32,436 nucleotides of DNA from Bacteroidaceae bacterium (lineage in GTDB: Bacteria; Bacteroidota; Bacteroidia; Bacteroidales; Bacteroidaceae): assembly GCA_024697285.1 (NCBI GenBank), contig JAILFY010000139.1, positions 1-32,436 on the forward strand, written 5' to 3'. Positions 4,724 to 23,600 of the stretch are shown here, piece by piece. A program made the translations under genes and the position numbers. Each line of letters opens with the position of its first letter. Position 1 is the first letter of the stretch. Below the pieces are notes generated by a model, which saw only the letters and a program-made list of their open reading frames with translations, was not told the DNA's origin and did no database searches.

Positions 4724-4792
4724 AAGCCTTTTTCGTTTTCCGTTTATGCGTTTTTGGATGGTGGGGTGACCTCCTCTTCACATTATTTAATA

Positions 4793-4880
4793 AGGTGTGG
4801 CCCGACATTCTAAAAGGTGTGGCACGACATTATATAATAAGGTGTGGCCCGACATTATTTAATAAGGTGTGGCCCGACAA
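4793..4880. repeat. Tandem repeat aggtgtggcccgacatt(atttaata) x4, period 22-25 bp
   Basis: Copies at 4793, 4815, 4840 and 4865. Confidence 0.93.
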
Positions 4881-10791: not shown

Positions 10792-10827
10792 GAGACCGCA
10801 GCCCGTGAGGGTAGCGGTCTCTTTCTT
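10792..10827 (+). terminator. Rho-independent terminator
   Basis: GAGACCGC-(14 nt)-GCGGTCTC followed by TTTCTT. Confidence 0.75.
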
Positions 10828-10995
10828 CATGGTTGTCGGTGTCCTTTATCAAACCTCGATAACCTTGATTTCCTAATCAGGTAACGTTCCCTTTCTTCTC
10901 GGTTGTCGGTATCCTTTATCCAATCTCGAGAACTTTGATTTCCCAAAACAGGTAGCGGTCTCTTTCTTCATGGTTGTTGGTATTCTTTATCCCTT
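10810..10995. repeat. 70-71-bp tandem repeat, about 2.6 copies, starting in the 3' arm of the terminator
   Basis: ggta(g/a)cg(g/t)tctctttcttcatggttgtcggt(g/a)tcctttatc at 10810, 10880 and 10951. Confidence 0.93.
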
Positions 10996-11108: not shown

Positions 11109-11139
11109 TTTGTTGTTTCGCCAAATAGCAGTAACTTTG
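11109..11139 (+). promoter_or_regulatory. Bacteroidetes-type promoter for the 710-aa ORF (true protein starts at 11170)
   Basis: TTTGTTG ... TAACTTTG. Confidence 0.65.
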
Positions 11140-11169: not shown

Positions 11170-13242
11170 ATGAGAAAACTCTACTCTTTATGCATCGCAT
11201 TGCTGGCCGTTTGCGGACTGGCAAATGCACAAGTAACCTTTGACTTCACGGGCGAAACGGCCTATGAGCAGTTCGGCCTCGCTGGCTTCTCGAACTCCGA
11301 ATCCAAGGCCGGTGATATCACCGCCGATGCTACCGTTACTTCTGGAGATATCTCCATCACCGTTTCGGCCGCCGCAGAGGGTGCCAGCAATCCCAATCGC
11401 ATGTGGGGAACCGTAAACAAGGAGACATCTGCTGTTGTAGGTTCCCTCCGCATGTACAGCGGTACTTTGACTATTGAGTCAGCGGGTCAGGCCATGACCT
11501 CTATTCAGATGGGATATGGCAAATGGAATGACGGCAACACGGCTGACTGCGGCACCCTGGCCTCTGGCAAATGGACCGGTAGCTCCAACAAGGTTGTCAT
11601 CACCATTGCAGCAAACACACAGTTGAAGAACATCACCGTGAACTTCGGCGAGAATCCCACTCCCGACCCCGATCCCGAAGAGATTGACTGGACCAGCTCC
11701 GCCACCGCCCCCTTGACCGTGCCCCAGCTGCTGGAACGTGCTGCCAAGCTGCAGCAGGGCGAGAACAGCTCCAGCAACGCCGTTTATGTGAAAGGTAAGA
11801 TTTCACAAATCAAGTACACCTTCAGCGCACAATATGGCACCGCTCAGTTCCATATCTCCGAGGACGGCCAACAGGCCAATGAGTTCCTCTGCTACGGCTC
11901 CCTGTATCTGGGCAATCGCAGTTGGGTAGACGGCGACACCCAGATCGCTGTAGGTGATGAAGTCATCATGTGCGGCACAGTCACCAACTACAAAGGAACC
12001 CTTGAGTATGCCAATAAGAAGAACTACATCTACAGCCTCAATGGCGTCACCGATGGTGGGGAAGTCGTCGTTCCCGAGTACACCAAGATTGCTGATATCA
12101 AGGCCGCTGCAACGACAGCTCACGTACAGGTCCTCTACAAAGCCTCCGATGTTCTCGTGTCCTTTGTCAATGGCAGAAGCGTGTATGTCTATGATGGCAC
12201 CGACGGTCTGCTCCTCTACGGCGACAACAGCGGTATCAAGACCGGTGACAAAGTGTCCTTAACCGCCAAGGGTGAACTCTATCTCTACAACGGACTGACG
12301 GAGATTTCCGTAACCGAATATGCTGACCTGAAGGTTGCAAGCAGTGATAATGCCGTGGAACCCCAGAAGGTGACTATTGCTGACTTGGTGGATTTCGACA
12401 AGTATGAGAATGAACTGGTGGTCATGGAGGAACTGACTCCCGCTGCTGAGGCTTGGTCGAATCGCAATATCGTCTTCGTGGACGACAGCGACAATGAGGT
12501 TACTATTCGTGATAACTTCAACACTGCTACCACTCTTACTTTCGATACTTCCAAGAGCTACACCGTGACCGGTTTCGTCAGCATCTATCAAAATGACTCC
12601 GGCTCCACCATTCAGATTTATCCTCGCGACGCCGAAGACCTGTCCAACGGCACAGCTCCTGTGGAATATGAGTTCACGGGCGACGGCACGCTGAATAACC
12701 CCTTCACCGTGGAGGACGTCCAGCATATAGTAGCCCCTGACACCAAAACAGCCGTGAAGGAAGATGCATGGGTGAAGGCTTATATAGTGGGCTATATCAA
12801 CGGTAGCTCCCTCAGCGACAAGACCGCCATGTTCACCGCCAACGCTCCCGAGGGAACCGACAAGAACGGCGAACCCCTGACGACGGCTGTCTCGAATATC
12901 CTCGTGGCCGATGCTACTGACGCAGCTACCATCAGCGCCGTAGTGCCCGTTGCCCTGCCCAGCAAGAGCGTGGCTCGCACCGACCTGAATCTGGCCGACA
13001 ACCCCGACAAGCTTCATACTCAGGTGTGGCTGAATGGTAATATCATCAAGTACATGGGTGTCACAGGACTCAAGGAAGTGTATGCCTACAGCCTCGACGG
13101 CACAGCTATCGTTGATGCCATCCGCGACGTGCATTCCGCAACTGCAGAGGGTGCTATCTACAACCTTGCCGGCCAGCGCATGCAGAATATCAACCGTAGC
13201 GGCATCTATCTGATAAACGGCAAGAAGGTCGTTGTCAAATAA
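11170..13242 (+). CDS. Secreted multidomain protein with OB-fold-like modules and DUF6359-like C-terminal region
   Basis: Signal peptide MRKLYSLCIALLAVCGLANAQ; AVYVKGKISQIKY...VGDEVIMCGTVTNYKGTLEYANKKNYIYSL; GTLNNPFTVEDVQHI...AWVKAYIVGYI; C-terminal IYNLAGQRMQNINRSGIYLINGKKVVVK. Track start 11110 lies in the promoter. Confidence 0.85.
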   Translation: MRKLYSLCIALLAVCGLANAQVTFDFTGETAYEQFGLAGFSNSESKAGDITADATVTSGDISITVSAAAEGASNPNRMWGTVNKETSAVVGSLRMYSGTLTIESAGQAMTSIQMGYGKWNDGNTADCGTLASGKWTGSSNKVVITIAANTQLKNITVNFGENPTPDPDPEEIDWTSSATAPLTVPQLLERAAKLQQGENSSSNAVYVKGKISQIKYTFSAQYGTAQFHISEDGQQANEFLCYGSLYLGNRSWVDGDTQIAVGDEVIMCGTVTNYKGTLEYANKKNYIYSLNGVTDGGEVVVPEYTKIADIKAAATTAHVQVLYKASDVLVSFVNGRSVYVYDGTDGLLLYGDNSGIKTGDKVSLTAKGELYLYNGLTEISVTEYADLKVASSDNAVEPQKVTIADLVDFDKYENELVVMEELTPAAEAWSNRNIVFVDDSDNEVTIRDNFNTATTLTFDTSKSYTVTGFVSIYQNDSGSTIQIYPRDAEDLSNGTAPVEYEFTGDGTLNNPFTVEDVQHIVAPDTKTAVKEDAWVKAYIVGYINGSSLSDKTAMFTANAPEGTDKNGEPLTTAVSNILVADATDAATISAVVPVALPSKSVARTDLNLADNPDKLHTQVWLNGNIIKYMGVTGLKEVYAYSLDGTAIVDAIRDVHSATAEGAIYNLAGQRMQNINRSGIYLINGKKVVVK

Positions 13243-13423
13243 GACAGACGGTTGTCGATGGATTAACCTGATGGTAGTCATCAAATAAACCAGAAGGTTG
13301 TCGTCGGATTAATCAGAAAGTCGTAGCTCGATAAACTGGAAAGTTGCCGTCCGATAAACCAAAAGGTTATCGACAGAAGAACAAGAAAATTGTAGCCCGA
13401 TAAGCCAAAAGGTTATCGGCGTA
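13240..13423. repeat. 23-bp tandem repeat, 8 contiguous degenerate units, beginning on the stop codon of the upstream CDS
   Basis: Unit consensus taaaccagaaggttgtcgtccga, phased at 13240, 13263, 13286, 13309, 13332, 13355, 13378 and 13401. Confidence 0.92.
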
Positions 13424-13472
13424 GGAAACCTTCGAGCGTTGCATCCCTACGCGCGCAAACCATAAAATAAAG

Positions 13473-13504
13473 GAGCCAGGACAGCTGTTCTGGCTCTTTT
13501 TTGC
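13473..13504 (+). terminator. Rho-independent terminator
   Basis: GAGCCAGgACagctGTtCTGGCTC followed by TTTTTT. Confidence 0.88.
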
Positions 13505-13517
13505 TTTTATTCTTGTT

Positions 13518-13543
13518 CTTTGGTGAAAAATGCACTAACTTTG
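13518..13543 (+). promoter_or_regulatory. Bacteroidetes-type promoter for the endonuclease gene
   Basis: CTTTGG ... TAACTTTG, 24 nt before the ATG. Confidence 0.65.
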
Positions 13544-13566: not shown

Positions 13567-15015
13567 ATGAGACGATTCCTTACGCACCTCTTTCTGGCGA
13601 CAATTCTCGCCACGGTTTCTGGCTCGCCGCTGAGTGCACAATCCGTGGACCTCGCCACCTACTACTCCGCTGCCAACGGCAAGAAAGGCGCTCAGCTGAA
13701 GACCGCTCTATATGAGATTATCACCAACCACACCGTCATCAGCTACGACGGACTCCACGACGCCTATAAGACTTCTGATTGCCGGCCCGATGGCAAGTTG
13801 CGCGATTGGTACTCCAACGTCACCAACTACACCATCGGCACCGACAAGGCAGGCAGTTATACCGAAGAGGGAGACTGCTACAACCGCGAACACAGCGTGC
13901 CGCAGAGCTGGTTCAGCAAGGCTTCGCCCATGAAGAGCGATCTCGTTCATGTTGTGCCCACCGATGGCTATGTCAACAACCGCCGCAGCAGCTATCCCTT
14001 CGGCGAGACCAATGGAGAAGTATATCGTTCCGCTAATTCCTACAGCAAGTTGGGTGCTTGCACCACCAGCGGTTACACAGGTCTGGTCTTCGAACCCAAC
14101 GATGAGGTGAAGGGCGACTTCGCACGTATCTATTTCTATATGGTCACCTGCTACGAGAACCGCATCAGCAGTTGGAACGGCGGCACCGCCTCGCAGGTCT
14201 TCGACGGCAAGACATATCCGGGCCTGCGCGACTGGACCCTGAAAATGTTTCTGCGCTGGGCCAAAGAGGACCCCGTGGACGATACGGAACGTGCTCGCAA
14301 CGAAGCTGTGTATAAGTTGCAGAAGAACCGCAACCCCTATGTAGATTATCCTTCGCTCTGTGACTACGTCTGGGGCGACAGCATCAGCAATGCCTTCCAG
14401 GCGAGTGGGGGAGGGGGCACGGACCCGGTGGATCCCGTTGATCCTGTGGACCCCGTGGACCCTGTTGACCCCGAGGACCCCGAAGAACCGGTGTCTGGGG
14501 CCATTGACCTCACCAAACTTACATGGGTGTCCGATACTCATCCCACCTATGGACAAGGCTTCACCGCCACGACCAACGGCCTCACCCTGAGCTACTATAA
14601 AGACCAGTCTTCCGTGGAACCCAAAGCCGTGGGTACGGAACTGCGCTTCTACGACGGGTCCGTCTTCCTGATTTCAGGCGCCGAGGTGCAACGAGTGGTG
14701 TTCCACGACGCGGGCGGTTCCAAGAGCGGTTGCGCCATCATCATCGACGGAAAAGAATATTCCTTCCAGGATGGTAAGATAAGCTGGAGTGGCTCCATGA
14801 ATCCGTTCATCTGCAGAGCCAGCCTGCAATCCCGCTTCGCCTCCATAGATATCACGATATCTCAGCCCGACGGCGTCTCCAGTCCGTCTGATGTGCCTTC
14901 CTTTCGGTGCGTCTTCGACGAGCAAGGCCGCTATCTGGGTCATAGTGTGCCTCCTCGTCGTGGTGTTTATCTGGTTCGCAAGGGCGAGAAAACGGAGAAA
15001 GTGATTATCCGCTAA
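13567..15015 (+). CDS. Secreted endonuclease I family (EndA/NucM) nuclease with (PVD)n linker and C-terminal sorting-type tail
   Basis: YNREHSVPQSWF...DLVHVVPTDGYVNNRRSSYPFGE; TDPVDPVDPVDPVDPVDPEDPEEP linker; GVYLVRKGEKTEKVIIR end. Confidence 0.92.
   Translation: MRRFLTHLFLATILATVSGSPLSAQSVDLATYYSAANGKKGAQLKTALYEIITNHTVISYDGLHDAYKTSDCRPDGKLRDWYSNVTNYTIGTDKAGSYTEEGDCYNREHSVPQSWFSKASPMKSDLVHVVPTDGYVNNRRSSYPFGETNGEVYRSANSYSKLGACTTSGYTGLVFEPNDEVKGDFARIYFYMVTCYENRISSWNGGTASQVFDGKTYPGLRDWTLKMFLRWAKEDPVDDTERARNEAVYKLQKNRNPYVDYPSLCDYVWGDSISNAFQASGGGGTDPVDPVDPVDPVDPVDPEDPEEPVSGAIDLTKLTWVSDTHPTYGQGFTATTNGLTLSYYKDQSSVEPKAVGTELRFYDGSVFLISGAEVQRVVFHDAGGSKSGCAIIIDGKEYSFQDGKISWSGSMNPFICRASLQSRFASIDITISQPDGVSSPSDVPSFRCVFDEQGRYLGHSVPPRRGVYLVRKGEKTEKVIIR
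14421..14490 (+). repeat. 9-bp in-frame repeat (GTGGAYCCY)n encoding the PVDPVDP linker
   Basis: Consecutive gtggatccc/gttgatcct/gtggacccc units. Confidence 0.9.
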
Positions 15016-19614: not shown

Positions 19615-19741
19615 GCAGATAATCAAGTACTCCTTTTTTTTCTTTCGCAGATTATCCGGTAGTCCCTTCCTTCCTTCCGCAGATTATCCGGTAGTCCTAT
19701 TGTCCTTTCGCAGATTATCCGATAGTCCCTTTCAGCCCTCG
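19615..19741. repeat. 31-32-bp tandem repeat gcagattatccggtagtcc(n)12, 4 copies
   Basis: Copies at 19615 (degenerate), 19647, 19679 and 19710. Confidence 0.93.
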
Positions 19742-22503: not shown

Positions 22504-22679
22504 TACGTTCAGAGTCGTTTAATTCAACGCCTAAAGGTCTGAATTAAAGCGCTGGAAGTTATCCAGTTCGGCGCCTAATGGTTCGTGTCTCAGCGCAAGG
22601 AGTTATCACGTTCAGCTGCTAATGGTTCGAGTCTCAGCGCTGGGAGTTATCACTTTTGGTGCCTTTCTTGGTCCGAATC
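22504..22679. repeat. 44-bp degenerate tandem repeat, 4 units
   Basis: Units at 22504, 22548, 22592 and 22636 align column by column without gaps (consensus agcgctgggagttatcacgttcggcgcctaatggttcgagtctc). Confidence 0.9.
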
Positions 22680-23467: not shown

Positions 23468-23600
23468 AGGATAATCCTCATTTTAGCGTGATTTAAAGAC
23501 TGTCCTCATTTCAGTAGAAAAACTTTTTTAAGGACAATCTTCCTTTCAGAAAAACACTCTATTCAGGACAATCCTCCTTTCAGAAAAAGGACAGATAATC
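23468..23600. repeat. Degenerate repeat aggacaatcctcctttcagaaaaa in the 5' leader, 4-5 copies
   Basis: Copies at 23468, 23497, 23531, 23565 and partial 23588. Confidence 0.8.

Follow-up and report, generated by a model that had tools for sequence, protein, structure and literature searches.

Bacterial minisatellites, or VNTRs, are intergenic, lineage-specific arrays of tandem units of at least 20 bp for which slippage is the usual explanation (PMC2884548). The array that follows a DUF6359 gene in the window (the whole 32,436-nucleotide stretch of Bacteroidaceae DNA that was analysed) shares these traits and consists, as minisatellites do, of several contiguous head-to-tail copies of a unit in the size range of about 10-100 bp. 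It differs from described cases in that its units are only about 50-80% alike and in that its probable founder, the tail of the adjacent coding sequence (CDS) plus the stop codon, is still legible. REP/BIME and other small palindromic repeats are likewise intergenic and can form a hairpin per unit (PMC2817692), but the array occupies one locus, runs head to tail without alternating orientation, and its unit lacks the many dispersed genome copies typical of that class. The intergenic TAACTGA direct repeats of Beggiatoaceae, Cyanobacteria, and some Bacteroidetes are also tandem spacer repeats with a stop-like TAA (PMC4679880). Those, however, have a 7-bp unit, come in many sets per genome, and in the BOGUAY genome lie mostly directly upstream of start codons, whereas here a single array lies downstream of a stop. 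The array is an ordinary minisatellite, of a type already described, whose origin can be read with unusual ease. We consider it probable that this old, noncoding, lineage-specific array arose when the last 26 bp of the DUF6359 gene, including the stop codon, underwent tandem duplication, and that it persists in the 3' UTR of the gene as a neutral relic with no dedicated function to be expected.

Features of the array and its surroundings (coordinates are those of the window)
Feature	Coordinates	Strand	Evidence
CDS, secreted DUF6359-domain protein with N-terminal signal peptide and conserved C-terminal tail ending in GIYLINGKKVVVK and stop	11170..13242	+	
Putative founder GATAAACGGCAAGAAGGTCGTTGTCAAATAA, codons INGKKVVVK + stop, ATAA at each end, hairpin between	13212..13242	+	
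Degenerate tandem array, 8 x 23 bp, consensus TAAACCAGAAGGTTGTCGTCCGA	13240..13423	+	autocorrelation, PSSM, relaxed TRF
Intrinsic terminator of upstream gene, 14 bp stem + T run	13469..13500	+	conserved in relatives
Promoter-like TTTG...TAACTTTG, presumed Bacteroidales type, for next gene	13519..13543	+	sequence; position from spacer alignment
Secreted Endonuclease I (PF04231)	13567..15015	+	syntenic with DUF6359 gene across genus

The eight units start at 13240, 13263, 13286, 13309, 13332, 13355, 13378, and 13401, the last base being 13423, and they are contiguous with 0 indels across 184 bp even though single units deviate from the consensus at up to 8 of 23 positions. Autocorrelation over 13240-13423 gave a self-match of 59% at offset 23 (96/162, 0.593) and of 68% at offset 46 (95/139, 0.683), against about 0.16-0.34 elsewhere (about 25% for most other offsets); the stronger match at 46 bp marks a higher-order 46-bp step. 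The unit coordinates and the autocorrelation together bear out the original prediction of eight contiguous 23-bp units without indels. A PSSM of the unit places its eight top hits in the window on these same units, with leave-one-out scores of 9.9-29.8 bits. Because neighboring units are only about 60% alike, Tandem Repeats Finder (TRF) missed the array at standard weights; with relaxed weights, it recovered 13208-13411. The array had also been described as starting on the stop codon. Its units do run from 13240, but the repetition reaches back into the end of the CDS, where 13217-13239 forms a worn unit in register and one repeat call extends to 13224. This in-register unit makes the predicted start at 13210 a sensible one. 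The terminator stem begins at 13469, 45 bp past the array, a slight correction to the predicted distance of about 50 bp. Lying ahead of both the terminator and the promoter-like site, the array would form a 3' UTR on the DUF6359 transcript. Several further intergenic arrays occur in the window, at 4780-4879 (25 x 4.1), 10810-10992 (70 x 2.6), 19615-19732 (32 x 3.7), 22548-22653 (44 x 2.4), and 23503-23588 (34 x 2.5).

A single 3-nt gap is enough to align the consensus unit in its repeat context, (GA)TAAACCAGAAGGTTGTCGTCCGA(TAA), with the CDS end (GATAAACggcAAGAAGGTCGTTGTCAAATAA versus GATAAAC-CAGAAGGTTGTCGTCCGATAA, three gapped bases). The local alignment score is 31 there and at most 25 elsewhere (0 of 12,845 sub-windows on both strands of the whole window), and none of 20,000 shuffles reached it. 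Translated in the frame of the tail, the unit reads I-N-Q-K-V-V-V-R-stop, next to I-N-G-K-K-V-V-V-K-stop in the gene. Ungapped and in register, the final 23 nt of the CDS (13217-13239) score 10.4 bits against the array profile, which is close to the lowest leave-one-out score of a true unit (9.9) and is equalled by only 6 of 64,346 other positions. The units thus resemble the adjacent CDS end more than they resemble other sequence. What does count against founding by the CDS tail is the 3-nt gap that separates unit from founder, since it requires an extra step. In a separate observation, full-spacer alignment placed the CDS tails of relatives inside the array, a sign of the likeness between tail and unit.

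The DUF6359 and Endonuclease I genes are syntenic in many genomes of the genus, and the named records with this pair are rumen or gut Prevotellaceae/Bacteroidaceae MAGs. Synteny was found via Endonuclease I, a related-locus search with the 690-aa DUF6359 protein having returned none. The spacers, taken from about 18 distinct gene pairs (several present twice, as a G handle and as a named record), range from 9 to 253 bp, with one further pair whose next match lies far away; the array is absent from all of them. In the three whose flanks align best, the spacer measures 143 (G082), 144 (G088), and 143 bp (G035), compared with 327 bp in the window. The difference of 183-184 bp matches eight units of 23 bp (184 bp). 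The window spacer without its units, 143 bp long, can be aligned with these three across the CGCGCAAACC stretch, the terminator, and the promoter region, where TAACTTTG is retained in G082 and G088 and replaced by TAATTTTG in G035; we take this site to be of the Bacteroidales promoter type. Since the orthologous spacers lack the array but are otherwise alignable, it is an addition in this lineage. The copy number in orthologues of other species is 0, this species being represented by one genome. The gene pair itself (11170-13239 and 13567-15012; a secreted DUF6359/OB-fold-like protein followed by a secreted Endonuclease I) is conserved across the genus, and the two products possibly act together. 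The Endonuclease I CDS also carries GGACCCCGT-like repeats at 14421-14482, past the catalytic domain.

Two outcomes had been named as damaging to a CDS-tail origin: unit-to-CDS similarity no better than that of shuffled sequence, and orthologous loci that carry the array behind an unrelated CDS end. Neither was encountered. The proposal that a duplicated CDS 3' end, stop included, seeded the array is supported by the best match in the window, the shuffles, the array-less orthologous spacers, and a fresh stop-straddling duplication elsewhere in the same genome. There, a gene with a tail of the same kind, DGKKVVVR-stop (G000:C12/C156), shows a 46-bp tandem duplication that begins in the last codons, passes the stop, and repeats tail and spacer in near-identical copies with TTGAC microhomology at the junction (L166 17447-17540, minus strand; again in the overlapping contig C156, L195 1-110). 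This gene tail is the exception among searches of the genome for unit copies, which yielded no other good match.

It is very improbable that a dispersed intergenic element with a tail-like motif was inserted behind the gene and then amplified. Such an element does exist in G030, G053, G059, and G075, where it also follows a gene whose tail is of another type (L221), and pieces of it recur at up to ten places in these genomes. It has no match in the window's genome, however, its sequence (TGA stop, GAGCGAAG) is unlike the array, and the array unit has no dispersed copies and stands in register with the adjacent CDS. The element, ...GAGCTCGAGCGAAGCTCAAGGTnnTGATTAAGTGAGCGAAG... (L198, L199, L200, L018 about 1930-2010, L221), combines conserved tail codons with a TGA stop, occurs behind genes with and without the tail, and may be a small mobile repeat imitating the end of a gene. 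Tail copies past the stop in G030, G059, and G075 were considered as independent parallels and rejected as parts of this element, since a near-identical stretch follows the differently tailed gene of G053 (L221).

Duplication of the CDS tail would have begun with strand slippage between the direct repeats GATAAAC, in the Ile-Asn codons, and AAATAA, at the stop. The ATAA copies at the two ends of the putative founder lie 26 bp apart with a 9-bp bulged stem between them, and the short repeats would bracket a hairpin, GATAA-A-CGGC/GTCG-TTGTC. Hairpins with short direct repeats cause slippage of replicative polymerases in vitro, as documented for archaeal enzymes (PMC4134008). Slippage at this site would copy the tail together with its stop, one codon-sized loss would shorten the unit to 23 bp, more slippage, some of it by 46 bp at a time, would bring the array to eight copies, and point mutation may then have worn the copies down. 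Because each copy carries its own TAA, growth at the stop is harmless to the protein, which would explain why the array begins there; with nearly every copy beginning with TAA, the protein is unchanged at any copy number.

The C-terminal tail of the DUF6359 protein recurs in many genes of the genus. We take it to resemble the tails of T9SS CTDs; the upstream protein matched no curated CTD model of the T9SS type A sorting domain in NCBIfam or Pfam. That protein spans 690-710 aa depending on its start, the mechanical one being a TTG at 11110 and the Met that precedes the signal peptide lying at 11170. We regard as unlikely a broader reading in which the conserved tail codons of the secreted proteins of this group, as hairpins flanked by short repeats at the stop, are recurrent seeds for 3'-UTR arrays, so that coding sequence repeatedly "spills" past the stop into new structured 3' UTR that can gain a regulatory role.

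Each unit can in principle form a hairpin (CGATAAACC-AGAA-GGTTGTCG), which raises the idea that a row of RNA hairpins is maintained in the 3' UTR to protect the mRNA or aid termination; we consider this improbable. The unit consensus folds as a bulged hairpin, three of the eight units keep it near-whole (two intact, one minus a single pair), units 2 and 5 carry paired changes (A-U to U-A, C-G to U-A), and the plus strand of the array folds better than shuffles (z -3.3) and better than the minus strand (z -1.8), although these shuffle controls are weak. Column shuffles looked stronger still (summed unit energy of -29.5 versus -16.4) but destroy the relatedness of the units; under neutral, random mutation of the consensus, hairpin stability was not significant (P of 0.09, or 0.23 when one member of the most similar pair of units is dropped). 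The hairpin is already present in the founder CDS and is thus inherited by the units, and sister species manage without the array. Rfam returned no match in the window except a tRNA elsewhere.

The kept period had been read as a sign of either an old array or selection on spacing. Age fits; selection on spacing is not supported, given those hairpin values and the behavior of other worn arrays in the genome, which likewise stay in period at indel levels of 0-2% (an array of 22 bp x 13, for instance, shows 75% match and 0% indels). The same behavior weighs against units that serve as binding sites for a DNA- or RNA-binding protein, held at a spacing of two helical turns (23 bp). This is a highly doubtful proposal for which the absence of indels from such divergent units speaks, but within the genome the presumed site recurs only at the C12/C156 gene tail. 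In 440 kb of sampled stretches with a crude ORF caller, tandem arrays number 28.9 per 100 kb in this genome, compared with 12.6 and 16.2 in two relatives, a richness that makes a slippage-prone or weakly purged genome plausible. Array periods of 22 (18), 44 (7), and 66 (4) are in excess (L152, L155, L156, L160, L162, L166, L167, L176, L179). The genome's tandem arrays also include a dispersed 22-bp family like CAACACGTATATACATCTTCGC, many of them near contig ends.

To conclude, the array offers a legible case of a minisatellite with a known birth sequence, namely, the last codons of a gene and its stop, and it shows why growth directly past a stop codon is tolerated. It fits a rumen Prevotellaceae genome that is seemingly gaining spacer DNA through tandem duplication.
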